Assembly (NCBI RefSeq): GCF_009755225.1
Contig: NZ_WQKZ01000002.1
Coordinates: 868,001-932,000, forward strand
Direction of reading: 5' to 3'
Length of the DNA: 64,000 bases
Source of the DNA: Hymenobacter ginkgonis
GTDB lineage: Bacteria > Bacteroidota > Bacteroidia > Cytophagales > Hymenobacteraceae
The number at the start of each line of letters is the position of its first letter. The first letter of the stretch is position 1. Below, one piece after another: positions 25,221 through 44,913 of the stretch. Under the pieces are notes generated by a model. The model did no database searches. It saw nothing but the letters and a program-made list of their open reading frames with translations, and was not told the DNA's origin. Both the position numbers and the translations under genes were made by a program.

Positions 25221-25227
25221 TACCGCT

Positions 25228-25563
25228 ATGAAAAACGCGCCCGTCGAATATTATTCCCTCCTCAATGTCCTGGCTCGCTGCGTGGTCGCCTGCGAATACT
25301 GCGCCGACGCCTGCCTCGTAGAGCCAGACATCGCCATGATGGTGCCCTGCATTCGCACCGACCGCGACTGTGCCGACATCTGTCGGCTCACGGCCGCGCT
25401 CATCGCCCGTAACTCGCCCCACGCCCCGCATCTTATCAAGGAGTGCATTGAGGTTTGCCAAAAGTGCCACGACGAGTGTGCCAAGCACCCGCACGACCAC
25501 TGCCAGCAGTGTGCCCAAGCTTGCCAAGAATGCGTGAATGCTTGTGAAAATTATGCGGCTTAA
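25228..25563 (+). CDS. Four-helix-bundle copper-binding protein (Csp/DUF326-like)
   Basis: This encodes 111 residues with 16 cysteines and several histidines. The cysteines line up along helices as CxxxC and CxxC motifs (CVVACEYCADAC, CADIC, CIEVCQKCHDEC, HCQQCAQACQECVNAC), the pattern of Csp copper-storage proteins that hold Cu(I) inside a four-helix bundle. There is no signal peptide, so it resembles cytosolic Csp3-type proteins. The frame extends upstream to a TTG at 25135, but that would run through the stem-loop; the ATG at 25228 gives the family's start. It probably buffers or stores copper. It ends at a perfect palindromic repeat. Confidence 0.9.
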   Translation: MKNAPVEYYSLLNVLARCVVACEYCADACLVEPDIAMMVPCIRTDRDCADICRLTAALIARNSPHAPHLIKECIEVCQKCHDECAKHPHDHCQQCAQACQECVNACENYAA

Positions 25564-27486: not shown

Positions 27487-27592
27487 GAGAACGTCGTGCT
27501 GAGCTGGCCGAAACCCCTTGCTCGCTCCGTTGCAACGGGCATGAAATACTGCTGCATGCGAGCTGCTTCGGCCAGCTCAGCACGACGTTCTC
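27487..27592. repeat. Long intergenic inverted repeat, GAACGTC family
   Basis: Perfect 26-bp arms (27487-27512 with 27567-27592), GAGAACGTCGTGCTGAGCTG and onward, with a 54-nt loop that carries TGCTCGCTCCGTTGC and ACTGCTGCATGCGAG. It lies in the gap between convergent genes. Confidence 0.87.
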
Positions 27593-27615: not shown

Positions 27616-28527
27616 TCACGCGCGTTGCTCTTTGGTCAGCGCTTCGTTGAGGCAGATGGCAGCTTTGGCACCCGTGGCAGCAGCCAGTAGCGCCTGCTGC
27701 TGGCCGGGTGCCGTGTCGCCGGCCGCATAAAGACCAACCACGGTGGTTTGCGCATTTTTATCGACCCACACCGCACCCTTCCCCGTGATGCGCGCACCTA
27801 GCTCGGCGGCCAGCGGGCTGCGCTGCTCCTGCGGCGCGTGCAGAAACAGCGCCGTACGCTCGAGGTACGTGCCATCCGTAAACTCGACGCAGCGCAACCC
27901 TAAGGGGCCGCCCACGAGGCGGGCCACCACTTCTTCGCGCACCAAAATGTGGTGGCGGCGCAGGCGCTGGCGGGCATAATCGGTGAGGTGGCCGGGGCCG
28001 TCGGTTACCACCACCACATCCTGGCTCCAGTTGGTGAGCAGCAGCGCCAAGCCTACCACCGCCTTGCCGCGGCCATATACGGCCAGCGGCTGGTCGCGCA
28101 CCTCGTAGCCGTGGCAATACGGGCAGTGCAGCACGCCCGAGCCCCACAGCTCGCGGAAGCCCGGCAGCGGCGGCAGCACATCCTCGACGCCCGTAGCTAG
28201 CAGCACGCGCCGCGCCGTACCCGTCCAGGCGTGGCCCTGGGCAGTTTTGCCTTCGGCCCGAAACCCGTGCGGCTGCTTGGTAAGCTTGGTTATTTTAAGC
28301 TCGCGCACTTCCACAGTGGGGTAGGGGGCCAGCTGCTCGCGGCCCAGGCGCAGCAGCTCGGCCGGCCGAATACCATCGCGCGACAAAAAGCCGTGCACCC
28401 CGCCCGACGGCGCATTGCGCGGGGCCCCGCCGTCGGCTACCAGCACCCGGCGGCGGCAGCGGCCCAGCGTAAGTGCTGCGCTTAGCCCCGCGCTACCGGC
28501 TCCCACCACGATAACATCGTAATCCAT
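27616..28527 (-). CDS. Thioredoxin-reductase-like NAD(P)/FAD oxidoreductase
   Basis: This encodes 303 residues. It has the FAD-binding VVGAGSAGLSAALTLGR (residues 7-23), a CPYC pair in HCPYCHGYEV (near 135), where thioredoxin reductases keep their redox disulfide, and the C-terminal FAD motif GLYAAGDTAPGQQQ. The NADPH-binding glycine motif of true thioredoxin reductase (GxGxxA) is weak here (VYGRGKAVVGLAL). Related short flavoproteins are widespread in bacteria as TrxB-like oxidoreductases of unknown partner. Cytoplasmic. It is divergent from the ModE-like regulator gene. Confidence 0.88.
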   Translation of the reverse strand: MDYDVIVVGAGSAGLSAALTLGRCRRRVLVADGGAPRNAPSGGVHGFLSRDGIRPAELLRLGREQLAPYPTVEVRELKITKLTKQPHGFRAEGKTAQGHAWTGTARRVLLATGVEDVLPPLPGFRELWGSGVLHCPYCHGYEVRDQPLAVYGRGKAVVGLALLLTNWSQDVVVVTDGPGHLTDYARQRLRRHHILVREEVVARLVGGPLGLRCVEFTDGTYLERTALFLHAPQEQRSPLAAELGARITGKGAVWVDKNAQTTVVGLYAAGDTAPGQQQALLAAATGAKAAICLNEALTKEQRA

Positions 28528-28698: not shown

Positions 28699-29058
28699 AT
28701 GCACGAGCTTTTTGCCGAAAACCAAGCCTTTCGCGCCAATGGCCGCCTCTGGATAGAAGGGCCCGCCGACCGTTTTCTGGGCATCGGTCGGCTCGAATTA
28801 CTAGAGCACATCCAGGCTACGGGCTCCATCTCGAAGGCCGCTAAAACAATGGGTATGTCGTACAAAAAGGCCTGGGATTTAGTGAGTTCTATGAATACGC
28901 AGGCCCGCCAGCCGCTGGTGGGCGCGCAAGCCGGCGGCGCCCACGGCGGCGGGGCGGCCCTCACGCCGGCCGGTGCGCAAGCAGTGGCCGAGTTTCGGGC
29001 TATGCAAGAGCGGTTCGAGGCGTTTCTGGCTGCCGAGACAGCTCGACTGTACCAGTAA
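28699..29058 (+). CDS. ModE-like HTH regulator without a molybdate-binding domain
   Basis: This encodes 119 residues and matches the N-terminal LysR-type winged-helix domain of ModE: RFLGIGRLELLEHIQATGSI (helix), SKAAKTMGMSYKKAWDLV (recognition helix), and LTPAGAQAVAEFRAM (wing and dimer helix). The Mop/TOBE molybdate-binding repeats of full ModE are absent; the protein stops right after the HTH. ModE represses molybdate-uptake genes when molybdate is bound. Short HTH-only forms are known in several phyla and need another ligand sensor or act otherwise. It heads a group of molybdenum-related genes. The frame reaches upstream to 28627, but that region contains the putative promoter. Confidence 0.85.
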   Translation: MHELFAENQAFRANGRLWIEGPADRFLGIGRLELLEHIQATGSISKAAKTMGMSYKKAWDLVSSMNTQARQPLVGAQAGGAHGGGAALTPAGAQAVAEFRAMQERFEAFLAAETARLYQ

Positions 29059-29109
29059 AAAGCAGCGGCCCACTTAAAAAAAGGCCAAACATTCCGGGAA
29101 AACTACCGT

Positions 29110-29117
29110 TATATTTG
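29110..29117 (+). promoter_or_regulatory. Putative -7 box (TATATTTG) of the SUOX-fold gene
   Basis: TATATTTG fits TAnnTTTG and lies 31 bp before the ATG at 29148. The alternative TTG start at 29115 falls inside the box, which argues against it. Confidence 0.45.
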
Positions 29118-29147
29118 CCCGAACATAACGAAGTTTTTATTTCCCAA

Positions 29148-29681
29148 ATGCTACTTTCTATCGCCGGCCGCCGGCATTTGCTGGCCGCCGCGCTCGGGGC
29201 TGGCTTGGCAATGGCTACACTGCCAAACGCTTATGGCCAGGCAGCTCCTGCTGCCCCACCCGCTACCCTGCGCCTTGAAGGCTTGGTAACCACGCCCCGC
29301 ACTTTCACGGCGGCCGAGTTAGCGGCCCTGCCCCACATCGAGCAAAAAACCACCGACAAGGAAGGCAAGCAGCACGTGTACCGCGGCGTGGCCCTGCGCG
29401 AAGTGCTGCACCTCGCCGGCGCTCCCGAGGGCAAGGGTATTCACGGCCAGGTGCTGGCCGAGGCAGTGCTGGCCACCGCCGCCGACGGCTACCAAGCCGT
29501 GTTCGCGCTGCCCGAAATCGACGTTGATTTTTCGCCCCAAACCATCCTGCTCGCTGACCGCCGCGACGGCCAGCCCCTACCCCCCCACGACGGCCCCTAC
29601 CAGCTCATCGTGCCGCTCGAAAAAAAGCCCGCCCGCTGGGTCCGCCAAGTCACGAGCCTGCGGGTAGTGAAGGTGCAATAG
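29148..29681 (+). CDS. Secreted molybdopterin-binding-fold (SUOX-like) protein lacking cysteine
   Basis: This encodes 177 residues. A signal peptide (about 1-29, NAYGQA) is followed by one oxidoreductase molybdopterin-binding domain like the core of sulfite oxidase/YedY: LRLEGLVTTPRTFTAAELAALP, split here as LRLEGLVTTPRTFT and AAELAALP; YRGVALREVLHLAG; DGYQAVFALPEID; GPYQLIVPLEKKPARWVRQV. The mature protein has no cysteine at all, so the conserved Mo-ligating Cys of catalytic family members is missing and enzyme activity of that type is unlikely. Alternative roles are a binding protein for molybdopterin or an oxyanion. It sits between the ModE-like gene and a TonB receptor. Confidence 0.85.
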   Translation: MLLSIAGRRHLLAAALGAGLAMATLPNAYGQAAPAAPPATLRLEGLVTTPRTFTAAELAALPHIEQKTTDKEGKQHVYRGVALREVLHLAGAPEGKGIHGQVLAEAVLATAADGYQAVFALPEIDVDFSPQTILLADRRDGQPLPPHDGPYQLIVPLEKKPARWVRQVTSLRVVKVQ

Positions 29682-29712
29682 ATAAAGCACATAATGAGGC
29701 ATATAACCCCAG

Positions 29713-29816
29713 AAGGTGGTCCTGCTGAGCTGGCTGAAGCATCTCGCGTGCAGCAGTAACCAAGACCATTGGACGAGGCGAGCAAGATGCTTCGGCCAGC
29801 TCAGCAGGACCGCCTT
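29713..29816. repeat. Long intergenic inverted repeat, GAACGTC-related
   Basis: Arms 29713-29744 and 29785-29816 (32 nt, two differences, both compatible with G-U pairs) carry GGTCCTGCTGAGCTGGC and GAAGCATCT. The loop contains TGCAGCAGTAAC and GGCGAGCAAG, the reverse orientation of the loop parts in the 15.8-kb copy. It lies between the SUOX-fold and TonB receptor genes and may terminate or attenuate transcription. Confidence 0.82.
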
Positions 29817-29842
29817 TTTGATTGATAAATAAAACTTAATCT

Positions 29843-32551
29843 ATGAAACAGAGGCTACGCATTTTGCGCGGCTCGTTGGCTTGTGTGTCGGTGCTGGCGC
29901 TGGCCCAAACCGCCGTGGCTCAGACTACTAAACTCCCGCGCCGCCCTACCCCCCAGGATACGCTGCACTCCGACCTGAACGAGGTGGTGGTGTCGGCCTC
30001 GCGAGTAGAGGAGAGCTTTTTGCAATCGCCGGTGACGGTAGAAAAGCTCAACGCCCGCGCCATTCGCCTCACGCCTGCGCCGTCGTTTTTCGATGCCATC
30101 GAGCACCTCAAAGGTGTGCAGGTGATTACGCCCAGCATTGGCTTCAAGGTGATTAACGCCCGGGGCTTCACCAATACTACTAACGTGCGTTTCGCGCAGC
30201 TCGTAGATGGCGTGGACAACCAGGCGCCGCACATCGGCGGGCCTATTGGCAACGTGCTGGGGCCGAGCGACCTCGACATTAACAATGTGGAGATTGTGCC
30301 CGGCACTGCTGCCGCGCTCTATGGCCTCAACGCCATTAATGGCCTGGCCAACTTCACCACTAAGAATCCCTTCAATTCGGAGGGGCTGAGCGTGCGCCAG
30401 CAAACGGGCATCAACCACCTCAACGACCCCAACGTGAAGACGTTTGGCCAGGACGGCTCCACGGTGAAAAGCTACTCCGAAACCAGCGTGCGCTACGCAA
30501 AAGTGCTGATACCAGATAAGTTAGCTTTCAAAGTAAACGGCACTTACCTGCGCGCCTACGACTGGGTAGCCAACGACCAGACCGACATTAACCCCACCGG
30601 CAACTCGACCGTTGGCTTGTTTGGAGCCGACAACCCGGCCCAGGACCAGGTGAACCGCTACGGCAACGAGTCGTCGGACCGCACCACGCTCACGCTGGGC
30701 GGCAAGCAGTATTCGGTGGCCCGCACTGGCTACAACGAGCGCGACCTGGTAGACTATAACGTGCAGACCCTCAAGGCTGATGCGGCGCTGCACTACCGCT
30801 TCCGGCCGGGGGTAGAGCTGGCTTACACCTACCGCGTGGCCAGCTTCGACAACGTGTACCAGCGCTCGAACCGCTTCCGGCTGCAAGACTACCTCTTGCA
30901 GCAGCACGCCCTCACGTTTACCTCGCCCGTGGTGCAGGCCCGCGCCTACCTCACCCAGGAAAACACCGGCAAAAGCTACAACCTGCGCTCGATGGGCGAG
31001 AACATCGACCGCAGCTACAAGACGGACGCCGTGTGGAATACGGATTTCACCAACGCCTGGAACGCGGCCTCGGCCAGTGGGCAGGGGGTAGCCGCCGCGC
31101 TGGCCACGGCTCGCACCGCTGCCGACGCTGGCCGCCTCCAGCCCGGCACCGAGTCCTTCAACCAGCGCCTGAGCCAGCTGCAAGACATTAACAACTGGGA
31201 CGTGGGTGCCGCCCTGCGCGTGCGCGCCAGCCTGCTGCACGGCGAGGCCCAGGTAAACATCGCCGAAGCCCTGCGGCGCCGCGGCAGTGCGCTGCCCGCG
31301 GGCCTCGACCTGCTGGCCGGCGCCGACCACCGCACCTACATCGTGGTGCCCGACGGCAACTACTTTGTGAACCCCAACCCCGGCAAAGACGCGCTCAACG
31401 ACAACCTTACCTATTCCAAAACTGGGGGCTTTGTGCAGGCCGGCGGCCGGCTTTTCAACGAGATGCTGCGCCTCACGGCCACGCTGCGGGTAGATAAGAA
31501 CGACTACTTCGACGTGAAATTTAACCCGCGCTTCACGGCCGTGTTTTCGCCCACGCAGCGCCAGAATTTCCGCCTCAGCTACCAGAGCGGCTACCGGTTC
31601 CCGAGCTTGTTCGAGGGTTTTTCCAACGTGAACAGCGGGCAGGTGAAGCGCATTGGCGGCCTGCGGGTGATGTCGAACGGCGTGTTTGAAAACAGCTACC
31701 TGCGCAGCAGCATCGACGCTTTCAACACGGCCGTGACGGCGGCCATCAACGCCAATACCTCGGCCCAAACCACGGCCCAGAAGCGCCAGGCGGCTATTCT
31801 GGCCAACCAGGGCACGCTCGTTAAAACGCCCTACACCTACCTCAAGCCGGAGTATATCAAGTCATTGGAAGTGGGCTACAAGGCAGCATTTGGGCCGCAG
31901 GGTCGCCTGCTGGTCGATGTCGATTTCTACTACAACTCGTACCGCGATTTTATCGCGCAAGTAGAGGCCTACGTGCCCATTGCCAGCACCACGGGCGGCA
32001 CCACCATCCAGGACCCGCTGCCCGCTACCTACGTGCCCGTGAGCGGCGATAACCTCAACGCCGTGGCCACGGCCCTTAATGCCCGCGCCGGCCAGGCCCG
32101 CTACCGCCTCTGGACGAACTCGCAAAGCCAAGTGTACAACTACGGCGGCTCGGCCGGCTTGCGCTACGACGTGGGCCGCGGCTTTTTGGCCGGCGGCAAC
32201 TCCACCTATACCCGCCTCGACCGTACCGAAAACGGCGACGGCCTCGAAGATGGCTTCAACACCCCGCGCTGGGCCTACAACCTAAGCTTGGCCAACGAAA
32301 ACGTGTTTGGCAACGTGGGTTTTGGGCTGAATTTCCGCCACCAAATCAGCTACTATTCCCAAACCTTTCTCGTGAATGGCACCGTGCCCGCCTACAGCAC
32401 CCTTGATGCGCAGGTGAGCTACCGCGTGCCCGCCGCGCAAGTGCGGTTTAAGCTGGGCGCCAGCAACGTGCTCAACCAATACTACGTGTCGTACTTGGGC
32501 GGCCCCAGCGTGGGCGGCTTATATTATTTGGCCGTTACTTACGGGTTGTAA
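29843..32551 (+). CDS. TonB-dependent receptor in the molybdenum locus
   Basis: This encodes 902 residues. A signal peptide (to about 27, AVAQT) is followed directly by the plug (about 45-180: LNEVVVSASRVEESFLQSP, VQVITPSIGFKVINARGF, GPSDLDINNVEIVPGTAAALYG) and a full 22-strand-type barrel ending in GGLYYLAVTYGL. There is no carboxypeptidase-like N-terminal domain, unlike the receptor at the left edge. No SusD partner gene is next to it, so it is not a glycan-uptake pair. Its neighbours are a ModE-like regulator, a SUOX-fold protein and Moco synthesis genes. That context suggests a molybdate, tungstate or chelate substrate; this is inference from context. Confidence 0.93.
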   Translation: MKQRLRILRGSLACVSVLALAQTAVAQTTKLPRRPTPQDTLHSDLNEVVVSASRVEESFLQSPVTVEKLNARAIRLTPAPSFFDAIEHLKGVQVITPSIGFKVINARGFTNTTNVRFAQLVDGVDNQAPHIGGPIGNVLGPSDLDINNVEIVPGTAAALYGLNAINGLANFTTKNPFNSEGLSVRQQTGINHLNDPNVKTFGQDGSTVKSYSETSVRYAKVLIPDKLAFKVNGTYLRAYDWVANDQTDINPTGNSTVGLFGADNPAQDQVNRYGNESSDRTTLTLGGKQYSVARTGYNERDLVDYNVQTLKADAALHYRFRPGVELAYTYRVASFDNVYQRSNRFRLQDYLLQQHALTFTSPVVQARAYLTQENTGKSYNLRSMGENIDRSYKTDAVWNTDFTNAWNAASASGQGVAAALATARTAADAGRLQPGTESFNQRLSQLQDINNWDVGAALRVRASLLHGEAQVNIAEALRRRGSALPAGLDLLAGADHRTYIVVPDGNYFVNPNPGKDALNDNLTYSKTGGFVQAGGRLFNEMLRLTATLRVDKNDYFDVKFNPRFTAVFSPTQRQNFRLSYQSGYRFPSLFEGFSNVNSGQVKRIGGLRVMSNGVFENSYLRSSIDAFNTAVTAAINANTSAQTTAQKRQAAILANQGTLVKTPYTYLKPEYIKSLEVGYKAAFGPQGRLLVDVDFYYNSYRDFIAQVEAYVPIASTTGGTTIQDPLPATYVPVSGDNLNAVATALNARAGQARYRLWTNSQSQVYNYGGSAGLRYDVGRGFLAGGNSTYTRLDRTENGDGLEDGFNTPRWAYNLSLANENVFGNVGFGLNFRHQISYYSQTFLVNGTVPAYSTLDAQVSYRVPAAQVRFKLGASNVLNQYYVSYLGGPSVGGLYYLAVTYGL

Positions 32552-32675: not shown

Positions 32676-33779
32676 ATGTCTGACTTTTCTGCCGCCGAGC
32701 GCCAGCGCTACCGCCGCCACCTCCAGTTGGCCGAAATCGGCGAAGCCGGCCAGCAGCGCCTGCGCCAGGCCCGCGTGCTGGTAATTGGTGCGGGCGGCCT
32801 GGGCTGCCCTATTTTGCAGTACCTGGCCGCGGCGGGGGTAGGGACGCTTGGCCTGGCCGACGCCGACCAAGTGGAGCTGACCAACCTGCCCCGCCAAATT
32901 CTCTATGGCCCCGCCGACGTGGGCCAGCTGAAAGTAGAAGCCGCTGCCCGCGCCCTGCGCCGCCTCAACGATTTGGTGACGTATGAGTTACACGCCGTGC
33001 GCGTAAGCCCCGCCAACGTACGCGAGCTGGTAGCGGCGTACGATGTGGTGGTCGATGGCTCCGACAATTTTCCGACCCGCTACCTGCTCAACGATGCCTG
33101 CGTGAGCCTGGGCCGGCCGCTGGTGTCGGGCGCCATTTACAAGTTTGAAGGCCAGGTATCGGTGTTCAATTACCAGGGTGGGCCTACCTACCGCTGCCTG
33201 TTTCCCGAGCCGCCGAGCGCCGCCGAAGCACCCGACTGCAACACCACCGGCGTGCTCAATGTGCTGCCTGGCCTCATTGGCACGGTGCAGGCCACCGAGG
33301 CGCTGAAAGTAGTGCTCGGCCTGGGCGACGTGCTCAGCGGCCGCCTCTGGATACTCGACACGCTTAGCTTTCAAAGCCGCACCCTGCGCTTCCGGCGCGA
33401 CCCGGTGCAGAGCCTTCTCAACCTCGACTCGGCGAACCCCGCCGACTACTTCGATGCCAGCTGTGCCCCGGCGCTGCCATTGGCAACGGCCATTAGTGCC
33501 AGCGACTTGCAGGCGCTACTAGCCGCCGCCGAGCCGCCCCTGCTGCTCGATGTGCGCGGCCGCCTCGAGTACCAGCGCCGCCACTTGCCCGGTGCCTTGC
33601 TGCTGCCGCTGCCCGAGCTAGCCGCTCGCGCCGCCGAGGTGCCGCGCACCCGCCCAGTGGTGGTGTATTGCCAAAGCGGCGTGCGCAGTGCCAAAGCCGT
33701 GGAGCTGCTCCAGCGCGACTTTGGGTTTGCTAATCTGCAAACCCTCAGCGGTGGGCTAGAAGAGTATCCGGGTTTTTGA
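32676..33779 (+). CDS. moeB: MoeB-type adenylyltransferase fused to rhodanese domain
   Basis: This encodes 367 residues. The ThiF/MoeB/E1-like domain (about 1-245) has the ATP site VIGAGGLGCPILQYLAAAGVG, the family DGSDNFPTRYLLND and the GTVQATEALKVVLG stretch. A C-terminal rhodanese domain (about 265-365) has LLLDVRGRLEYQRRHLPGA and the active-site loop VYCQSGVRS. MoeB adenylates the C-terminal glycine of MoaD; the rhodanese part can supply sulfur, as in eukaryotic MOCS3. Unlike E. coli MoeB, the two zinc CxxC pairs are not intact (TYRC instead of CYRC, and no second pair). The frame extends to 32586, but the ATG at 32676 gives the normal start. Confidence 0.9.
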   Translation: MSDFSAAERQRYRRHLQLAEIGEAGQQRLRQARVLVIGAGGLGCPILQYLAAAGVGTLGLADADQVELTNLPRQILYGPADVGQLKVEAAARALRRLNDLVTYELHAVRVSPANVRELVAAYDVVVDGSDNFPTRYLLNDACVSLGRPLVSGAIYKFEGQVSVFNYQGGPTYRCLFPEPPSAAEAPDCNTTGVLNVLPGLIGTVQATEALKVVLGLGDVLSGRLWILDTLSFQSRTLRFRRDPVQSLLNLDSANPADYFDASCAPALPLATAISASDLQALLAAAEPPLLLDVRGRLEYQRRHLPGALLLPLPELAARAAEVPRTRPVVVYCQSGVRSAKAVELLQRDFGFANLQTLSGGLEEYPGF

Positions 33780-33953
33780 GGGGGGTAGGGCCTGGGCCGA
33801 AGCTAGCATGTGCCGGTAGCGTGAGGCCAGGCCGCCAGGTTGGCGCTATATTTTGCTGTACATAGCGCTAAAAAATTTAGAAGGAATGAAAACACACGGG
33901 CGGTGTTTAGGGTAATGCAATGACCGGCTTGGCTGGTCTACTTAGTTATCCGC

Positions 33954-35045: not shown

Positions 35046-35288
35046 ATGAACCTTACCATCGCCCTTTTTGGCATTGCCCGCGAAATCGTGGGGAAGTCGT
35101 CGCTCGACCTCACGGTGCCCGCTGGCCAGTCGGCGGCTGGGTTGCTCGCTGACTTGCGCCTTCAATATCCGGCGCTGGCTGGCTTGCGCAGCTTGGCCGT
35201 AGCTGTCAACAATGAATACGCTGCCGAGGACGTGGCCCTGCACGAGCGCGACGAAATTGCGCTTATTCCACCCGTAAGTGGGGGGTAG
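35046..35288 (+). CDS. moaD: Molybdopterin synthase sulfur-carrier subunit
   Basis: This encodes 80 residues with a ubiquitin-like fold: LTIALFGIAREIVGKSSLDL, split here as LTIALFGIAREI and VGKSSLDL; VNNEYAAEDVAL; and the C-terminal PPVSGG. The terminal Gly-Gly is adenylated by MoeB and thiocarboxylated to deliver sulfur to cyclic pyranopterin monophosphate. The ATG at 35046 gives the family length; the longer frame is not needed. The stop codon TAG lies in the G-rich word GGGGGGTAGGG. Between moaA and moaE. Confidence 0.95.
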   Translation: MNLTIALFGIAREIVGKSSLDLTVPAGQSAAGLLADLRLQYPALAGLRSLAVAVNNEYAAEDVALHERDEIALIPPVSGG

Positions 35289-35382: not shown

Positions 35383-35802
35383 ATGCACCACATTGCCCTC
35401 ACCGACCAGCCCATCGACGTACCTGCCGTGCTGCAAGCCGCCGAATCGGATGAGGCCGGGGCCGTCAATGCCTTCATCGGTACGGTGCGCAACCGCAGCG
35501 ACGGCCGCCGCGTGGTGCGCCTGCACTACGAGGCCTACCCCCCCATGGCGGTGCACCAGCTCGGCCGCGTGGCCGAAATGGCCCAGGAAAAGTGGCCCAT
35601 GCTGCGCCAGGTAGCCGTGACGCACCGCCACGGCACCCTTGAAATAGGCGATGTGGCGGTAGTCGTAGCCGTGTCGACGCCGCACCGCGCCGACTCGTTT
35701 GCCGCCTGCCAATACATCATCGACACGCTAAAGGAAGTTGTACCCATCTGGAAAAAAGAAGAGTACGAAGACGGTACCGTGTGGGTATCGGCCCACCCAT
35801 AG
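35383..35802 (+). CDS. moaE: Molybdopterin synthase catalytic subunit
   Basis: This encodes 139 residues. The MoaE landmarks are GAVNAFIGTVRNRSDGRRV, split here as GAVNAFIGTVR and NRSDGRRV; LHYEAYPPMA; VTHRHGTLEIGDVAVVVAV; and the C-terminal PIWKKEEYEDG with the catalytic lysines. Together with MoaD it converts cyclic pyranopterin monophosphate to molybdopterin. It is convergent with moaC across a shared terminator hairpin. Confidence 0.96.
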   Translation: MHHIALTDQPIDVPAVLQAAESDEAGAVNAFIGTVRNRSDGRRVVRLHYEAYPPMAVHQLGRVAEMAQEKWPMLRQVAVTHRHGTLEIGDVAVVVAVSTPHRADSFAACQYIIDTLKEVVPIWKKEEYEDGTVWVSAHP

Positions 35803-35872: not shown

Positions 35873-36364
35873 TTAGTCTTGGTGGTGGAAGTCGGACTTG
35901 CCGCCCGTCTTTTCCAGTAGCCTAATCTCTTCAATTACAATGTTGTGCGACATGGCTTTGCACATGTCGTACACCGTGAGGGCCGCTACCGAGGCGCCGG
36001 TCAGGGCTTCCATTTCGATGCCAGTTTTGCCCGTCACGCGGGCCGTGCACTCAATTAGGAGCGAATCGGGGGGTAGGACTTCGATACTTACCTGGCAATC
36101 ATCGAGGCCCAGTGGGTGGCAGAGGGGAATAAGGTCGGCCGTTTTTTTGGCCGCCATTACGCCGGCGATAATGGCCGTCTGAAACACCGGGCCCTTGCGG
36201 GTGGGCAAATCGCCGGCCTGCACCAGGGCCACAATGTCGGCTCCGAGGCGCACGCGGGCCCGGGCTCGCGCCACACGCGCCGTAACGGCTTTGCCACCGA
36301 CGTTGACCATGGCCGGCTGGCCGGCGTCGTTGAGGTGCGTGAGTTTGGGGGCTAAATCGGACAT
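35873..36364 (-). CDS. moaC: Cyclic pyranopterin monophosphate synthase
   Basis: This encodes 163 residues from the ATG at 36364; 20 more in-frame residues upstream are not family-like. MoaC motifs are MVNVGGKAVTARVARA, KGPVFQTAIIAGVMAAKKT, the catalytic-site LIPLCHPLGLDDC, and GIEMEALTGASVAALTVYDMCKA, split here as GIEMEALTGASV and AALTVYDMCKA. It converts the MoaA product into cyclic pyranopterin monophosphate. It is on the opposite strand to moaADE but convergent and adjacent, so all Moco steps up to molybdopterin are encoded here; the Mo-insertion genes moeA and mogA are not in the window. Confidence 0.96.
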   Translation of the reverse strand: MSDLAPKLTHLNDAGQPAMVNVGGKAVTARVARARARVRLGADIVALVQAGDLPTRKGPVFQTAIIAGVMAAKKTADLIPLCHPLGLDDCQVSIEVLPPDSLLIECTARVTGKTGIEMEALTGASVAALTVYDMCKAMSHNIVIEEIRLLEKTGGKSDFHHQD

Positions 36365-36426
36365 GAAGGGAGTGGCTGGCGAAAACACAAAGTACGGGCT
36401 ACCGGCCTCAGTGGCTAGAACCACTC

Positions 36427-36915: not shown

Positions 36916-39900
36916 ATGAAAACATTCCTACTTGGACTTTTTGCTATTTTCTGGAGTAACCTGGCAATTGGGCAAACCTTGTATACGTTCAATGGTGGGG
37001 GCACCAGCGGCAATTGGAATAATAGCAATACTTGGACCACCGACCCTACGGGCTCGACCAAAGTTGCCTCTCGCGTGCCAACTGCCAACGACAATGTGGT
37101 GGTGACGAATAGCTTCGTGGTATCGGTAACTGACCCCATCGCTACTACGGGGCTCAAGGTTACCATACAGCGCGGTGGGGTACTCGATTTGACGTCGAGC
37201 ACCGCGACGTTTGCCCAGCTAAGCAGCCTTTCGGGCCAGGGAACGCTGCGCATCGGTGCGCCTTACTTCCCTAGCATTGCGATGGGCAATAACAACTTTG
37301 ATGATGCCAATACCGGCACCGTCGAGTTTTACAACTGGCCAGCGGGGCTTACGGTGCTGCCGCAGCCAACTTCGGGGCAATACAACAACCTGCGCCTGCT
37401 TAATACAACCGCTACGGCCTACACGGCACAGCTCGACAATACGCTAACGCTAACGGGCAGCCTGACGCTGACGCGCACCAACACTACGGTTGCTACCCCC
37501 CTCGTTTCGTTTAACCTAGGCAAAACGGCCAGCACTAACCGCACGCTTAATGTGCAGGGCGACATTGCGGTGGGTGCCGGCACGGCGCTGGGCGTCACGG
37601 CCGTGACGGGCTCGCATACACTAAACGCGGGTGGCAGCTTTAGCAACGCGGGCACGGTGAACCTGCACAACGGTACCACCAATGATAACCAAGTAGCCCT
37701 GCTCAATTTCATGGGGGCTACTGACGCCAATTTTGCCTGCAACGGCCCTACCGACCTCGATATTTTGCAGGTAAACAAGGGCATTGACAGCCAGGTACTG
37801 CTCAACGTGACCGGCACTGCCAGCAGCACCGCGCAAGGCAACCTACGCCTGAACCACGTCGGCAACGGTCGGCTGCTCGTGCTGATTAACGGCGTGGCCA
37901 AGTTTGGCGGCAATATCTACCTGGCGAAAATTCACAACGGTAACGTTGAGAACTCCCCGGCCAACGACCCGGCCTCCGGCTGGTGGGAGCTGGGCTCCCC
38001 CACCACCAGCCCTACCCTGTGGGTGGCCGGCGCGCAGATATATAACGACAACGCTTCTGCATTCATCATTTACGGTACATACCGCATTAGCAGCGGCACG
38101 CTATCCACCAAAACCCCCGACGCCATGGTAATTCGGGAAGATGGCCAGGTGCTGATTGAGGGCGGGGTTACTTCGGTTAATAAATACCGGCCGTCCAGCA
38201 CTTCGGCCACGCATCGGGGCTCATTTATAATGACGGGCGGCACATTTGAGAGCCTAGGCACGGTGGCCCGCCTGGGCAACGACCAGTTCGCGCGCTTCTC
38301 GATTCCTTACGTGACGCAGGCCTTCCGGATGACGGGGGGCACGCTACGGGTGCAAAATCCGAATACCAACGGCATTGATGGCTTGTTTCATATTGGGGTG
38401 AACCCCAACAACGCCATCGTATCCGGCGGTACGATTGAGGTGATACTGCCCGGCTCCAACGTGAACGGCACCATCCTGACTACGGCGCCCCTGTGGAACC
38501 TCACCATTAAGAAAGCGGCGGCGGCTGGCACCAGCAAAGCGCTGCTCGACGCCGTGGCCGTGCCCGCCGCCTACACCAGCGGGGCTACCACGACGGCGCA
38601 GCCCCTGACGGTACTCAACAACTTTACCATCGACGGCACCAACCCCACGACGTTTGACGCCAACGCACAAAACCTGAACATCCAGGGGACGCTTACCATT
38701 GCCTCTGGCAGCAAGTACCTGCCCGGCAACAACACCACGACTTTCAGCGGCGGCCAGGACCAGCAGCTAGTCAATAACGGCGCCATCGGCGCGGCGGCTA
38801 CCCTCAACACGTTCTATAACTGGGTGGTGGACAAATCGGCGGGCACGCTGGTGCTGGCCGGCACGGCCAAAACCTACACCGTGGCCGCCGCCGGCACCCT
38901 GAGCTTGCTCAACGGCGTGCTCAGCGACAACGGCAGCACCATCAACGTGCTGGGCAACATGGTCAACTCGGCCTCGCACACCAGCGGCGGCGGCACGGGC
39001 AGCATCACGCTTGCCGGAAGCACCAACCAGACGGTGAGCGGCAACGACATGGGCGTGTTTGGCAACCTCAACATCAACAGCAGTGTGGCCGCCGGTGGGG
39101 TGGCGGCCACGTTTACGGCCAACATGAGCGTGGCCAACGCGCTTACATTCATCAGCGAGAATATTCTGGCTATTGGGGCCAATCGGCTATCGCTCACTAA
39201 TGTGGGTGCCGGCGATGCCGCAATTTCCGGCGTGTTTTCCAACAAATGCTTTGTGCAAACGGCCGGTAACCAGAGCGACCTGGGCCTACAAAAAACCTAC
39301 GGCGGAGCCGATAGCTTTGTCTTCCAGGTGGGCACGGGCACTAAGTACGCGCCAGCTACGGTGAAGCTCGCTCTGGCCACGACCCTGGCCAAGTACGGCC
39401 AGGTAAGCGTGAGCCCGGTGGCCGCCCGCAACCCCTTCGTGACCAACGGCACCGCTGGCTCGCTGGCTTACTACTGGAAAGTGCGTAGCACGGGCTTTGG
39501 CACCATCCCCTCCGGAGCCATTAACATGAGCTTCACTATGACGAACACAGATGCCTCGGGCACGCTCACCAGCTACGTGCCCGGCCGCTACTCCGCTACC
39601 GCCGTCGCCTGGACGCCGCAGTACACCGATGTGAACCTGGTAGTGGAAAGGGCCACCACTGCCGTTATCAATTTCAATAGCCTCAACCAGTTTGAGGGTG
39701 AATACACCGCCGGCCTGCCCGCCGCCTTCGGCACCGTAACGGCCTACTACAGCCGCGCGAGCGGCACCTGGGCTACCCCGGCCACCTGGAGCACGGTCGG
39801 CTTCAATGGGGCCGCTGCCACCGCCGCCCCGGCCGCCAACAACCCCGTATTTATCGGCTCGGCCAGCGGCAAAATCTATCATAATGTGACGGTAGCCGCC

Positions 39901-42900
39901 AACGGCGCCAATTCGGGCTCGCTGGTGATTGACCGCGGCTCGACGATGGACGTAGGCATCACCACCGGCCACAACTTTGGTGCGCTGCCCGATGCCAAAG
40001 TAGGCGGCTCGGGGCGGCTGCGCGTGAGCTCCAGCGGGGCCACGGCCACCTTCCCTGGTGGCGACTTTGGTTCTTTTCTGCAAGAGAACGGCGGCACGGT
40101 GGAATACTACACTAATACCACCAATAACCAAGATTTTACGGTGCCCGCTACGTCGACCACGACCATCGGCGCTACCACGACTACGCTGGCGCTGAACTCA
40201 TACAAAAACTTGTCGCTGGATGCCGGCGCCAGCCGCACTATCACCCTGCCCAACCTCGACCTGCGGGTGTTCTCGCAGCTGAAAACCGGCACCTCGGGCG
40301 GCACGGGCACAGTGCTGTTGAGCGCGGCCGCCAGCGGCAACCTGCGCGCCGACTCGCTCATCGCGGTGCAGGCGGGCACCTTGCGCTACCCCAACGGCGT
40401 GGTCCGCACCCTGACCGCCAACACCGACGTGCGCATCGACGCCAACGCCAAGTTTGACGTGAACAGCACGGGCACGGCCGTGGCCAACGCCCTGACCATC
40501 GGCGGCTCGCTGACTAACAACGGCGTGCTGGATTTCAACCTCGGCGCCAGCCGAATAGTTAACCTGACCTTCCTGGGCGGCCAGAATGCGAATTTCACCG
40601 GCACTACCGGCACCCTCACCGACCTTTACACCCTAACCCTGAACAAGGGGGTAGGGCAGGCCGCCACTCTGAACCTGGACGTGGCCGGCTCGCTCACTAC
40701 GCCTGCCAGCAGTTGGCTCACACTCACTAACGGCACACTGCGCTACGCCAAGACGACGGGCACGCTCGGCATTCACAATGCCGACAGCCCGTACCTGATT
40801 CCGAGCACGGCGGGCCTGACCGTGGACGCCGTAGGCGCCGACGTGACGGTGGCTACCGGCCCCACTGCCACCACCGACAACACGACCCCGGCCAACAACA
40901 CCAGCGCGGTTTCGGACTTGAAGCTGGCCGGCCAGCTCCAGGTATTGCAGGGTAAGCTGAGCGTAGGTACGGCCACTGGCCTGGGCAACGACCTCGAATA
41001 TGCTAGCGCCGGCGCCCCAACCATCCGGGTGGGTCCAGCCGGCACCCTGTACGTGAACGGCCAGATTCGGCGCACCACGGCCAACACCAACGGCTCGCTG
41101 CGCTACGACCAGACCGGCGGCAGCGTCGAGATTCGCGGCGCCCGCGCCGAAGTGTACCAGAACAACGAGCGCGGCTTGTTTGAAGTGCAGGGCTCCGGCA
41201 GCATCTTCCGCATGAGCGGCGGCACGCTGGCCCTGCGCGGCACCAACACCCGCCCTACCATTATCGCCGACCTCTACCTGCGCCCCGACTCGACGGTGGT
41301 GACCGCTGGTACCATGGTGCTGGGCAACACCGTGGCCGGCAACATCACAGTGAGCGTGGAGTCGCTGGTGCCGCTCTACGATATGAAGGTGGAAGCCGGC
41401 AACGACGCCACCAGTACCAACACGGGCTTGCTCACGGGCGTGAACCCACTGCGGCTGCAAGGCTCGCTGACCATTTCCAACAACTTTGCCTACTTCAACG
41501 CTAACGGTCTGGGGCTGAGCATCGACCGCGACCTGCTGAACAACAACGCTTCGGCCAATACGGGCCTGGCCAACGGCGGCTTCCAGCCTGGCACTGCTAC
41601 CCAGACCACGATTTTCACCGGCAAGGGCCCGGTGGTGCAGCAGATTACGAGCACCACGACCGGCAACCTCACCGTGTTTGGGGGCTTGGTTGTGAACAAC
41701 GCCCAAACCGGCGGCACCCTGCAGCTGGGCCGCAACGCCCGCGTTATCGGCACGCTCACCATTGCCAAGGGCACGCTGGCTGACAATGGCCAGACGCTGA
41801 CCGCGCTGGGCGACGTAGTGAACACGGCCACCCACACCAGCGCCACGGGGGGGAGCCTCACGCTGGCTGGCACCGTGAACCAGAACATTGACGGCAACGG
41901 CAAGGGCAAGTTTGGCAACGTTATCCTCAACAATAGCACGGGCGCCACCACCCTAGCCGACCAGGAAATTACGGGCGTGCTCACCCTGACCAGCGGTGTG
42001 CTCACCATCGGCTCTAACCTGCTGAGCTTGAGCAATACTGCGGCTGGCGCGGTGACGGGCTTCAACAGCACGAATTTTATTCGTACCAACGGCATCGTGG
42101 CCGACCTAGGCGTGCGCAAAAGCTACCCTGCCGGGGCCTCGGACTTTACGTTTCCCATTGGCGCGGCGGCCAAGTACACGCCCGTGCGCATGAATGTGAC
42201 TACCAACTCGGCCGCTGGCACGCTCACCGTGCAGCCCATCGACCTGGCGCACCCCTCTACCACCGACCCGGCGGCCAAGGAGCTGAGCTTTTACTGGAAA
42301 GTGCGCAGCACGGGTTTTAGCGCCACGCCTATCGTCACGCAGGTATTTAACTACATCGACAATGGCGTGGGCAATGACGTGAACGGCACCGAAGCCAACT
42401 ACAAGCTGGGCCGCTTCCTGAATGGGGCCTGGGTGCCGCAGAATGGCCTGCCGCTTGTAGGCTATGCAGTAAACACAACGGCTAATACCTTAATTAACAC
42501 CGAAGCCACCTACTTCGACGGCGACTACACCGGCGGCGAGGCTTCGGAGTTTGGCAGCGTGCCCACGTTTTACAGCCGCAACTCTACGGCCGGGCAGGCG
42601 GGCGGAGCCAGCTGGGACAACCCCACTACCTGGACTACTAACTCCGACGGCTCAAACCCGATTGTGGCCCTCACTACCTACCCCACCGCGGCCAACCCGG
42701 TGGTTATCCGCAGCGGTCACCTCGTCAATTCGACGGCGGGTGATAAGGGTGCGGCCACCTTGCAGCTGCTGGGCACCGGCATCCTGGACCTGGGCGCCTC
42801 GACGGCTAACAACTTCAATACCGTGACGGGCACCGGTACCGTGCGCATCGGCTCAGCCTTGTTTCCGGCCGGCAACTACTCGGCCTTCGTGGCGGCTACC

Positions 42901-44913
42901 GGCGGCACCGTGGACTACACGGCCGCCGTGCAGCTGCCCGCCCGCGATACGTACAACAACCTGACCTTCTCGGGCGGTAACATCAAACTGCTGAGCAACC
43001 TTGACCTGACCATCAACGGGGCCCTGAACGTGGCTGCCTACACGACCGTCAACAACCCCACCAACCAGAGCATCACCCTGACCTCGGCCACGAGCGGGGC
43101 TACCCTAGACGGCACGCTCAACCTGAACGATGGCCCCCTCACCACCGGGGCTTTCCTGACCAGCAACGCCGGCAGCACGCTCAACCTGGGCGCGGGCGCC
43201 GTCAACATCGGCACCGCTTTCACCAGTGGCGGCACCCTCAACAACGGCGGCGGCGCGGTCGCGGTGGGCACGGCCTTCACCAACACCGGCACCTACAACG
43301 CCACCGTGGGCGCGGGTACCCTCACGGTGGGCACCACATTCGCCAACAATGGCACTTACAATGCCGGCGCGGGCAGCCTCACGGTCAGCGGTAATTTCAG
43401 CAACGCCGCCAACCAGTCGTTCATCGCCAACACGGGCAACGTAATGGTGGGCGGTAATTTCTCGAATGCCGGCTCCTACACCGTGGCCGATGGGGTAGCG
43501 GGTAACCTGCTGCGCGTGGCCGGCGATTTCAGCAACCTTGCCACCGGCTCGTTCGCGGCCGCTACGAGCAACCTAGTGCTGCGCGGCAACTTCACCAATA
43601 GTGGGGGTCAGGGCTTCGACGCCGGCCAGGGTCTGGTGCAGTTTATCACTGACGACAACCGCCGCCTGACCGGGGTCACCACCTTTTTCAACGTGCAGAA
43701 AGTGGGCGCCGCCACCCTCACGCTCGGCACCAGCACCGACGTGGCGGTTGGCAACGTGCTCACCCTGAGCAATGGCCTCATCGTGACGGGCACAGCGAAT
43801 ACGCTCTCGCTCACCAACACGGCCGTGCAGCCCATTGTGGGCACCAGCACCAGCGCCTACGTGGCGGGCCGACTGGCCATTACGCTGCCCGCTGCGGTTA
43901 GCATCCGAATGTTTCCGGTGGGCCTAGGCGGGCGCTACCGCCCGGTTACGCTCAAGACGGAGGACGTGTCGAGCCAGCCCCAAATTATTCTGACCGAAAT
44001 CTTCAACGGTGCCCCCAAAGGCAGCATCGACGCCACGCTGTCTAACTTGTCGGCCAACCGCTACTACCGCATCCAGCGCCTCTCGGCAGGCACCCTGGCC
44101 CCAGTAACGGTGCAGCTGAGCTTCAACACCGACGTGGTAGACGAGGAAGTGCACGTGCCCGGCAACCTGCGCGTGGCCCAATCGACGGGCAATGCAGGCC
44201 CCTGGACCACGGCCGGCGGTGCCGGGGTATTCACGCCCGCCGACCCGCGGGGCTACACCACCTCGGCTTCGTCGCAGACGACCCTCGACAGCAATTCCTT
44301 CTTCGCGCTGGCCTCGACCAACAAGGTGGATAACCCACTCACGGGCACGGCCCCGCTGCCGGTGCAGCTGCTGAGCTTCACGGCGGCGCGCCAGGGCACG
44401 GCAGTACGCACGGCCTGGGCCACGGCCTCAGAAACCAACAGCGCCTATTTCGTAGTGCAGCGCTCGGCCGACGGCCGCACCTTTGCCGATGTGCAGCAGG
44501 TGCAGGCCCAGGGCAGCAGCGTGGTGCGCCACGACTACGCCGCTCTCGATGCTACCCCCCTGGGCGGCACGAGCTACTACCGCCTGCGCCAGGTAGACCA
44601 GGATGGCACGGCGAACTACTCGCCCGTAGTGGCCGTGCGCTTCGATGGCCAGGCCGGGGCGCCGGCCTTGGCAGCTTACCCCAACCCAGCTTCGGGGCAG
44701 GGTTTCCAGCTGCTCACCTCCAACCTTGGTGCCACCGGGGGCACGGTGCGGGTGTTCGACAACGTAGGGCGCCTCGTGCTGACGCACGTGGCGGCCACCG
44801 GCGCGGTAGATGCCCTCATTCAGCCGGCCCAGCCGCTGGCCAGTGGCATGTACTTCGTGACGTGGCAGACGGCCGATGGCCTGAAGCTCACCACCAAAGT
44901 GGCCGTGGAATAA
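36916..44913 (+). CDS. Giant T9SS-exported G8/beta-helix adhesin-like protein
   Basis: This encodes 2665 residues. After a signal peptide (to about 20, LAIGQ) come three long related units that start near residues 20, 940 and 1880. Each opens with a G8-like module (GTSGNWNNSNTWTTDP; SGTWATPATWSTVG; GGASWDNPTTWTTN) followed by hundreds of residues of beta-helix-type repeats rich in Asn, Gly, Thr (LNNFTIDG, TFSGG, LNIQG). The segment YYWKVRSTGFG near 852 recurs near 1791 as FYWKVRSTGFS. A fibronectin-like segment (about 2480-2575) and a type A T9SS sorting domain (about 2585-2665, LAAYPNPASGQG to TKVAVE) end the protein. It is probably exported to the surface as an adhesin or matrix protein. 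No enzyme signature seen. Confidence 0.92.
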   Translation: MKTFLLGLFAIFWSNLAIGQTLYTFNGGGTSGNWNNSNTWTTDPTGSTKVASRVPTANDNVVVTNSFVVSVTDPIATTGLKVTIQRGGVLDLTSSTATFAQLSSLSGQGTLRIGAPYFPSIAMGNNNFDDANTGTVEFYNWPAGLTVLPQPTSGQYNNLRLLNTTATAYTAQLDNTLTLTGSLTLTRTNTTVATPLVSFNLGKTASTNRTLNVQGDIAVGAGTALGVTAVTGSHTLNAGGSFSNAGTVNLHNGTTNDNQVALLNFMGATDANFACNGPTDLDILQVNKGIDSQVLLNVTGTASSTAQGNLRLNHVGNGRLLVLINGVAKFGGNIYLAKIHNGNVENSPANDPASGWWELGSPTTSPTLWVAGAQIYNDNASAFIIYGTYRISSGTLSTKTPDAMVIREDGQVLIEGGVTSVNKYRPSSTSATHRGSFIMTGGTFESLGTVARLGNDQFARFSIPYVTQAFRMTGGTLRVQNPNTNGIDGLFHIGVNPNNAIVSGGTIEVILPGSNVNGTILTTAPLWNLTIKKAAAAGTSKALLDAVAVPAAYTSGATTTAQPLTVLNNFTIDGTNPTTFDANAQNLNIQGTLTIASGSKYLPGNNTTTFSGGQDQQLVNNGAIGAAATLNTFYNWVVDKSAGTLVLAGTAKTYTVAAAGTLSLLNGVLSDNGSTINVLGNMVNSASHTSGGGTGSITLAGSTNQTVSGNDMGVFGNLNINSSVAAGGVAATFTANMSVANALTFISENILAIGANRLSLTNVGAGDAAISGVFSNKCFVQTAGNQSDLGLQKTYGGADSFVFQVGTGTKYAPATVKLALATTLAKYGQVSVSPVAARNPFVTNGTAGSLAYYWKVRSTGFGTIPSGAINMSFTMTNTDASGTLTSYVPGRYSATAVAWTPQYTDVNLVVERATTAVINFNSLNQFEGEYTAGLPAAFGTVTAYYSRASGTWATPATWSTVGFNGAAATAAPAANNPVFIGSASGKIYHNVTVAANGANSGSLVIDRGSTMDVGITTGHNFGALPDAKVGGSGRLRVSSSGATATFPGGDFGSFLQENGGTVEYYTNTTNNQDFTVPATSTTTIGATTTTLALNSYKNLSLDAGASRTITLPNLDLRVFSQLKTGTSGGTGTVLLSAAASGNLRADSLIAVQAGTLRYPNGVVRTLTANTDVRIDANAKFDVNSTGTAVANALTIGGSLTNNGVLDFNLGASRIVNLTFLGGQNANFTGTTGTLTDLYTLTLNKGVGQAATLNLDVAGSLTTPASSWLTLTNGTLRYAKTTGTLGIHNADSPYLIPSTAGLTVDAVGADVTVATGPTATTDNTTPANNTSAVSDLKLAGQLQVLQGKLSVGTATGLGNDLEYASAGAPTIRVGPAGTLYVNGQIRRTTANTNGSLRYDQTGGSVEIRGARAEVYQNNERGLFEVQGSGSIFRMSGGTLALRGTNTRPTIIADLYLRPDSTVVTAGTMVLGNTVAGNITVSVESLVPLYDMKVEAGNDATSTNTGLLTGVNPLRLQGSLTISNNFAYFNANGLGLSIDRDLLNNNASANTGLANGGFQPGTATQTTIFTGKGPVVQQITSTTTGNLTVFGGLVVNNAQTGGTLQLGRNARVIGTLTIAKGTLADNGQTLTALGDVVNTATHTSATGGSLTLAGTVNQNIDGNGKGKFGNVILNNSTGATTLADQEITGVLTLTSGVLTIGSNLLSLSNTAAGAVTGFNSTNFIRTNGIVADLGVRKSYPAGASDFTFPIGAAAKYTPVRMNVTTNSAAGTLTVQPIDLAHPSTTDPAAKELSFYWKVRSTGFSATPIVTQVFNYIDNGVGNDVNGTEANYKLGRFLNGAWVPQNGLPLVGYAVNTTANTLINTEATYFDGDYTGGEASEFGSVPTFYSRNSTAGQAGGASWDNPTTWTTNSDGSNPIVALTTYPTAANPVVIRSGHLVNSTAGDKGAATLQLLGTGILDLGASTANNFNTVTGTGTVRIGSALFPAGNYSAFVAATGGTVDYTAAVQLPARDTYNNLTFSGGNIKLLSNLDLTINGALNVAAYTTVNNPTNQSITLTSATSGATLDGTLNLNDGPLTTGAFLTSNAGSTLNLGAGAVNIGTAFTSGGTLNNGGGAVAVGTAFTNTGTYNATVGAGTLTVGTTFANNGTYNAGAGSLTVSGNFSNAANQSFIANTGNVMVGGNFSNAGSYTVADGVAGNLLRVAGDFSNLATGSFAAATSNLVLRGNFTNSGGQGFDAGQGLVQFITDDNRRLTGVTTFFNVQKVGAATLTLGTSTDVAVGNVLTLSNGLIVTGTANTLSLTNTAVQPIVGTSTSAYVAGRLAITLPAAVSIRMFPVGLGGRYRPVTLKTEDVSSQPQIILTEIFNGAPKGSIDATLSNLSANRYYRIQRLSAGTLAPVTVQLSFNTDVVDEEVHVPGNLRVAQSTGNAGPWTTAGGAGVFTPADPRGYTTSASSQTTLDSNSFFALASTNKVDNPLTGTAPLPVQLLSFTAARQGTAVRTAWATASETNSAYFVVQRSADGRTFADVQQVQAQGSSVVRHDYAALDATPLGGTSYYRLRQVDQDGTANYSPVVAVRFDGQAGAPALAAYPNPASGQGFQLLTSNLGATGGTVRVFDNVGRLVLTHVAATGAVDALIQPAQPLASGMYFVTWQTADGLKLTTKVAVE

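Follow-up and report, generated by a model that had tools for sequence, protein, structure and literature searches.

The window analysed here, a 64,000-nucleotide stretch of the Hymenobacter ginkgonis genome, encodes a 177-residue member of a family of Cys-less SUOX-fold proteins, for which we use the label SUOX* with the window protein (29148–29681) as the reference. We lean towards the view that SUOX* is a PruR-type protein of the periplasm that binds a ligand without catalysing a reaction, and that it serves a ModE-controlled unit for molybdenum acquisition. A binding role appears much the likelier when set against an oxidoreductase role, because the SUOX fold is kept, the catalytic Cys and the His of the HGxPxR motif are lost, and a molybdenum-related neighbourhood with a palindrome recurs around the gene. 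The points that support our reading, all of them computed, are the fold, the pattern of residues, the linkage to genes for ModE, a TonB-dependent receptor (TBDT) and ModABC, and the palindrome. The first-pass annotation of this DNA had suggested a binding or sensing protein rather than an oxidoreductase; the non-enzymatic part of that suggestion is supported, and the suggestion as a whole stands in part. The relevant features of the window are as follows.

28699–29058, + strand: ModE-like regulator, winged-helix/HTH only, about 120 aa (TIGR00637, 83 bits; PF00126, 31 bits)
29107–29130, no strand assigned: ModE-box-like palindrome CGTTATATTTGCCCGAACATAACG, CGTTAT-N12-ATAACG, 17 nt from its end to the SUOX* ATG
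29148–29681, + strand: SUOX* gene, ATG start, 177 aa
29712–29817, + strand: very strong hairpin, followed by a T run, in the gap from SUOX* to the TBDT gene
29843–32551, + strand: TonB-dependent outer-membrane receptor (TBDT), 902 aa (PF00593, PF07715)
32676–33779, + strand: MoeB/MoeZ-type adenylyltransferase with a rhodanese domain (PF00899, PF00581; NCBIfam MoeB/MoeZ models)
33844–33867, no strand assigned: second ModE-box-like palindrome CGCTATATTTTGCTGTACATAGCG, 86 nt 5' of moaA
33954–34973, + strand: MoaA (PF06463, PF04055)
35046–35288, + strand: MoaD-like (PF02597)
35383–35802, + strand: MoaE (PF02391)
35873–36424, − strand: MoaC (PF01967)

The window protein, for which the first-pass annotation had reported no Cys in the mature part, has no Cys at all, and it matches PF00174 (Oxidored_molyb) at 38.7 bits against a cut-off of 24; the same model is found in 72/72 family members at E 0.01. 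Its hydrophobic N terminus, with AYGQ-A at its end, is, judged by eye, consistent with the export proposed earlier. An alternative TTG start at 29115 in the list of open reading frames would begin within the palindrome. Because the genome has three Cys-containing PF00174 genes elsewhere, the Cys-less SUOX* is an extra gene and not a replacement. A twin-Arg pair is present in the N termini of 4/17 listed genus members, besides the window's own, so that export by Tat with the cofactor already loaded does not characterize the family, and we dropped it as a general trait.

The gene is flanked by the genes for the ModE-like regulator and the TBDT, the position that had been described for it, and not by a DcpA- or DTB-type membrane regulator. 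The regulator consists of the HTH domain only. Its match to TIGR00637 (83 bits, E 1.2e-23) lies below the cut-off of 98.5, no match to a molybdate-binding TOBE/Mop domain was obtained for it in Pfam and NCBIfam domain scans, and it is the sole ModE match in the genome at E 0.001. Divergent from it is a gene for a thioredoxin-reductase-like flavoprotein (27616–28527, − strand), which keeps this position in 10 of the 20 Hymenobacter loci retrieved. The window also encodes a Cys-rich four-helix protein (25225–25563, + strand), whose best model is that of the Csp1-family copper storage protein (53 bits against a cut-off of 100), and, adjoining moaC, a repetitive protein of 2665 aa whose N terminus is signal-like (36916–44913, + strand).

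Between SUOX* and the receptor gene, the segment 29680–29845 folds with −82.9 kcal/mol (z −9.4). The hairpin at 29712–29817 has inverted copies of one 26-nt stretch and is probably a repeat element, since GCTGAGCTNGCCGAAGCA-like stretches also occur at 27562 and in L159, the stretch with the genome's own modABC. It is a possible terminator or attenuator; given a hairpin of −83 kcal/mol with a T run, SUOX* and the TBDT may be unequally transcribed in this genome. Named loci of the clade to which the window belongs have 27–130 nt between SUOX* and the receptor gene, or the two overlap.

Family-wide comparisons were made on an alignment (A2) of 72 SUOX* sequences: 68 of 80 named loci, three genus loci and the window. 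The remaining 12 named loci are near-duplicates or have broken frames, and the 80 are themselves the best 80 of 131 confirmed stretches. The AlphaFold model of the predicted mature protein, made with the 72-sequence alignment, has a mean pLDDT of 92.7 and a pTM of 0.87. Foldseek matched it to PruR and SUOX/YedY structures at E 1.2e-7 to 2.7e-4; the top PDB matches are the PruR entries 7kos, 7rkb and 7kom (E about 1e-7; TM-score 0.69–0.74 by query length), followed by SorA, YedY and other SUOX enzymes. VIA gave Z-scores of 10.0 to 18.9 against PruR and SUOX/YedY structures, with 18.9 for the C185S variant of chicken sulfite oxidase, 15.5–17.4 for PruR entries and 16.2–17.4 for 7kos, 7rkb and 7kom. 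Among the matches of a sequence profile of the family are SorA, at E 1e-5, and 7kos, named 'Pterin Binding Protein', at E 0.0044. SUOX* is thus predicted to have the SUOX fold, in line with the domain pattern that the first-pass annotation had recognized; an unrelated fold, which would have spoken against it, was not what the model returned.

Catalytic members of the sulfite-oxidase/YedY family ligate Mo through one conserved Cys, and the His of HGxPxR is a cofactor-site residue of SUOX/YedY molybdoenzymes. We aligned SUOX* jointly with seven Cys-type proteins, which include Caballeronia L153, itself a bearer of the Cys. The catalytic column holds Cys in 7/7 of the Cys-type proteins and in 0/72 SUOX*, where it is Asp in 52/72 and elsewhere Q, E, G, H, N, T or a gap (Glu72 in the window protein). 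The HGxPxR His is present in 6/7 Cys-type proteins, L153 having Tyr, and in 0/72 SUOX*; the window protein has Asp148 at this position and Gln in place of the Arg of the motif. The Lys before W is replaced by Arg in 72/72 (Arg163 in the window). Gly, Asp, Tyr, Glu, Lys and Arg residues are invariant across the 72 sequences, which come from several phyla, and the Lys and Arg of an EKKPAR stretch are invariant throughout. Within the alignment, loss of the catalytic Cys is a trait of the family, and none of the 72 homologues has the Cys whose presence would have undone the earlier proposal. The idea that absence of Cys marks the clade holds at the catalytic column and fails for Cys in general, because 26/72 members have some Cys in the aligned part. 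In a second Hymenobacter subclade (L020–L024, L118, L125, L126, L130), two Cys are conserved, in DRCDG and GRCV; both lie outside the catalytic column and are possibly a disulfide or a new site.

The top structural match by Foldseek is PruR (Atu3496; PDB 7KOS, 7KOU, 7RKB, 7KOM, 7KP2), a periplasmic pterin-binding regulator of Proteobacteria. According to a review, PruR lacks the catalytic Cys and has at that position a Trp that is mostly conserved among PruR proteins, its pterin-site Tyr is conserved or replaced by Phe, and its Asn102 is Asp in some groups (PMC13259868). From the numbering of 7KOS we infer that the pterin-site Tyr is the Tyr of the NDY motif. The Asn102 column is Asp in 72/72 SUOX* (Asp113 in the window), Tyr follows two residues on in 72/72 (Tyr115), and Trp occupies the Cys column in 0/72; SUOX* thus has the Asp/Asn and the Tyr of PruR and not its Trp.

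The palindrome upstream of the window gene resembles the ModE/Mo-box, and TATATTTG within it fits the Bacteroidota −7 element, TAnnTTTG. Mo-boxes are named, without their sequence, in passages of two papers (PMC7294313; PMC6925177). The pattern CGYTAT-N12-ATARCG occurs at four sites in the 5.67-Mb genome, and the reversed control pattern at two. Three of the four precede SUOX*, moaA and a xanthine-dehydrogenase-type operon of three genes (MoCoBD, FAD and 2Fe-2S subunits); the fourth is a GC-rich hairpin behind a catalase-like open reading frame, named by eye, and is probably unrelated. No exact box was found at the genome's own modABC (L159), and the near-box sites there, with 10–11 of 12 letters, look like chance. 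The same stretch carries a second TonB-receptor-like gene (L159:1851–4520; CarboxypepD_reg and Plug) about 260 nt before the modA match, which is followed by modB and modC; this is another receptor tied to molybdate uptake.

Beyond the window, 40 of the 80 named loci (best 80 of 131 stretches) contain the exact box, at 40 sites in all; 39 of these sites lie at the 5' end of the cluster, before SUOX* or before a TBDT or di-haem gene that heads it. Five first-order Markov simulations gave 0, 1, 1, 1 and 1 sites. The exact box was absent from all 37 Cys-type PF00174 loci, a set that counts one gene twice (L034, L177) and has the Cys in 37/37; a form with one mismatch was found in 11/37. Across 100 loci, 54 sites have a spacer of 12 and one has any other length from 9 to 15, the 54 not being independent because several genomes enter the set twice. 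Within Hymenobacter, window included, the exact box accompanies 16 of 24 SUOX* loci, or 19 of 24 with one mismatch allowed. Genus-wide, 75 genomes have a match; the sites listed, at least 75 in 49 of these genomes, include 43 that are at most 1 kb upstream of the receptor, and the box occurs near the receptor with or without a SUOX* gene; in one genome (G025) a box lies about 150 nt before the modA match. We conclude that the start of the SUOX* cluster carries a conserved putative operator of the ModE type, which would tie both the receptor and SUOX* to molybdenum.

A survey of 101 Hymenobacter genomes gave SUOX* matches in 36, of which 24 were counted as family; the other 12 are weak (E 1.9e-6 to 3.8e-4), and the six of these that were fetched (L029–L034) all have the Cys motif. 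Of the 84 genomes with a clear ModE, 81 have it upstream of a TBDT gene, on the same strand and no more than 3 kb away; this count omits seven weak ModE matches (E at least 1.7e-4, frames of at least 302 aa) and 44–48% TBDT paralogues. The SUOX* gene sits between the two in 19 of its 24 occurrences, away from an intact pair in two genomes, and in three genomes where there is no pair. Because SUOX* is missing from 60 of the 81 genomes that have the pair, we regard the ModE–receptor pair as the core and SUOX* as an accessory. ModA accompanies SUOX* in 13/24 genomes, as against 10/77 without it (Fisher 1e-4, a statistic that ignores kinship). The tree places apart two Hymenobacter clades that have SUOX* between ModE and TBDT. 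Forcing them together was not rejected (p-AU 0.226 with all Hymenobacter rows, 0.052 with the two clades), and we therefore do not claim that they acquired it independently. In single genomes SUOX* is decaying, with an internal TGA in one (G024, L025) and a fragmented copy in another (G027, L027).

A wider scan covered 84,980 species, each represented by one genome. It confirmed 131 stretches, of which the best 80 were kept; these come from Bacteroidota, Acidobacteriota, Verrucomicrobiota and Planctomycetota. Within 4 kb of SUOX* in these 80 loci there is a TBDT gene in 32, a di-haem gene in 30, ModE in 27 and ModA/B/C in 10, three of the last being weak (28–30% identity). A ModE, ModA/B or exact-box mark is present in 49 of the 80. 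The 31 without a molybdenum mark include 7/7 from Terriglobia, and several of their contigs end near the gene. In five Terriglobia loci (L094, L098, L107, L109, L115), the genes that come after SUOX* resemble those of a class-I glutamine amidotransferase and, as judged by eye, an aldehyde dehydrogenase; molybdenum marks are absent beside SUOX* in these five. In six Spirosoma loci, SUOX* is followed, in two of them after a di-haem gene, by modA, modB and modC, so that it directly precedes modA in four, as it does in one Verrucomicrobiota locus. On a Deinococcus plasmid the order is modA, a TOBE gene, SUOX* and an ABC permease gene. A homologue on a Rhizobium plasmid (L150, 37% identity) has no annotated molybdenum neighbours, and a PruR homologue on a Nitratireductor plasmid (L154:3770–5694) overlaps a gene for a HAMP histidine kinase and has Val at the position of the PruR Trp.

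We propose that the ModE-like regulator binds the palindrome at the start of the cluster and that, when molybdenum is short, its control would relax and expression of the cluster would rise. The TonB receptor would then carry a molybdenum compound into the periplasm, where SUOX* would bind it, or its pterin-like organic part, and molybdate would pass on to ModA and ModBC. Where an MbnH/MauG-like di-haem enzyme is adjacent, it may act on SUOX* or on the ligand by redox chemistry. Several points count against a PruR-type binding protein in a molybdenum-acquisition unit: the absence of SUOX* from 60 of the 81 ModE–TBDT genomes, the 31 of 80 loci without a molybdenum mark, the lack of a molybdate-binding domain in the regulator and of an exact box at the genome's own modABC, the hairpin between SUOX* and the TBDT, and the missing PruR Trp. 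Kinase genes near SUOX* in three examined loci also count here, as they suit a PruR-like sensor too: a histidine kinase and LytTR response regulator 154 nt downstream in Chitinophagales (L144:10577–12290), a HATPase protein preceding the box, 206 nt upstream of SUOX* (L092), and a HAMP kinase encoded on the opposite strand at a distance of about 1.3 kb (L078).

Such a sensor, signalling pterin or redox state to a TonB receptor, a histidine kinase or a membrane protein with an indirect link to molybdenum, would share with PruR its fold, its size and the positions of Asp/Asn102 and Tyr. PruR acts by binding the periplasmic domain of a partner (PMC13259868), and the distant Nitratireductor homologue is followed by a histidine kinase, as in PruR–DTB pairs. 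However, ModE, TBDT, ModABC and di-haem genes are what recurs next to SUOX*, in the window as in most of the clustered gene orders, with no recurring sensor partner among the neighbours named, and the PruR Trp is missing; we consider a sensor role quite unlikely. Another possibility is that SUOX* itself binds a molybdate or tungstate oxyanion, in a basic pocket left by loss of the pterin cofactor, and carries it from the TonB receptor to ModA. The positions directly 5' of modA and, on the Deinococcus plasmid, between modA and the permease gene suit such a carrier, as do the invariant Lys and Arg of EKKPAR and the Arg that fills the Lys column. ModA already binds molybdate, however, the residues common to SUOX* and PruR point to a pterin-type ligand, and the window protein has lost the Arg of HGxPxR to Gln, so that we regard an oxyanion carrier as unlikely.

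The di-haem genes suggest a further role, that of protein substrate or electron partner of an adjacent MbnH/MauG-like enzyme, comparable to the part played by MbnP towards MbnH in copper systems. All 30 di-haem genes in the best 80 of 131 loci lie within 130 nt of the SUOX* match, and the one member scanned has the MbnH family as its best NCBIfam model (257 bits, below the cut-off of 363). MbnH and MbnP are paired, often beside a TonB transporter, in methanobactin operons (PMC3621798). By analogy, SUOX* may hold the place of MbnP in the di-haem-linked loci. Against a partnership of this kind, the window cluster has no di-haem gene, and 9 of the 30 linked SUOX* have no Trp in their last 140 residues; MbnP-type oxidation of Trp cannot therefore be general, and we rejected it as a mechanism for the family. 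We hold the partner role to be very unlikely. For the window protein, NCBIfam at E 0.1 listed two families and no MbnP model; a natural fusion of SUOX* with a di-haem cytochrome, sought through NF041762, a weak hit of the NCBIfam scan, was discarded on weak matches below the cut-off in 2/118 genomes. That SUOX* has remained a Moco enzyme, its metal held by a different residue, is highly improbable in our judgement. The fold fits SUOX enzymes as well as PruR, the Cys column is Asp in 52/72, and Cys-type L153 also has no His, so that lacking the His is by itself compatible with an enzyme; but the Cys column is variable, the His is lost in 72/72, and a twin-Arg pair is confined, the window apart, to those 4 of 17 listed members. 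We reject catalysis mainly for the lost Cys, with the lost His in addition. Scarcely credible, finally, is a decaying and functionless leftover of a SUOX gene: two genus members have broken copies and most ModE–TBDT genomes have none, but residues are invariant across several phyla and both palindrome and position are conserved.

The usual view is that molybdate crosses the outer membrane through porins. If the PruR-type binding role is correct, a ModE-linked TonB receptor with its binding protein would make active uptake of molybdenum across the outer membrane testable, and SUOX domains would have a second use without catalysis, outside c-di-GMP signalling. It would also give a lead to function for genes that lack the Cys and are annotated 'molybdopterin-dependent oxidoreductase'. 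A broader proposal, which we put forward tentatively and regard as rather doubtful, is that Bacteroidota and some other bacteria have a dedicated, ModE-controlled TonB system whose receptor brings in molybdenum in organic form, as Moco, a Mo-pterin fragment or a molybdophore. In this scheme a retired SUOX fold, without its Mo ligand, would accept the complex in the periplasm and release molybdate for ModA, joined in some lineages by an MbnH-like di-haem enzyme as redox partner. Searches of the open-licence PMC literature turned up no title or abstract opening that describes the SUOX*–ModE–TBDT cluster.

Among known systems, the SUOX/YedY/SorA molybdoenzymes (PF00174) have the domain fold and the order of motifs in common with SUOX*, whereas the catalytic Cys and the HGxPxR His are absent in 72/72 SUOX*, which are also too short to hold a second domain. 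The ModE regulon with ModABC resembles the SUOX* unit in its ModE-like HTH, in the palindrome before moa and Mo-enzyme genes and, in one genus member, before modA; it differs in that the regulator of the SUOX* unit has no molybdate-binding domain and that a TonB receptor and SUOX* belong to the unit. In some genera the SUOX* loci recall the MbnT–MbnP–MbnH copper units, with a TonB receptor, an MbnH-like enzyme and a small exported partner adjacent to one another, although here the partner is SUOX* and regulation looks molybdenum-linked. PruR is closest: it too has about 170 residues, looks exported and has the SUOX fold without the Mo-ligating Cys, shares Asp/Asn at position 102 with Tyr two residues on, and is the top structural match of the predicted SUOX* fold. 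In contrast, PruR has Trp at the Cys column and SUOX* has none, the loop before the C-terminal RW motif is shorter in SUOX*, and the neighbours of PruR are DcpA/DTB whereas those recurring beside SUOX* are ModE, the TonB receptor, and ModABC or di-haem genes. Because PruR was known earlier, a Cys-less SUOX-fold binding protein is not new as such; what is new relative to PruR is the molybdenum-acquisition setting, together with the absence of the Trp and the occurrence in several phyla.
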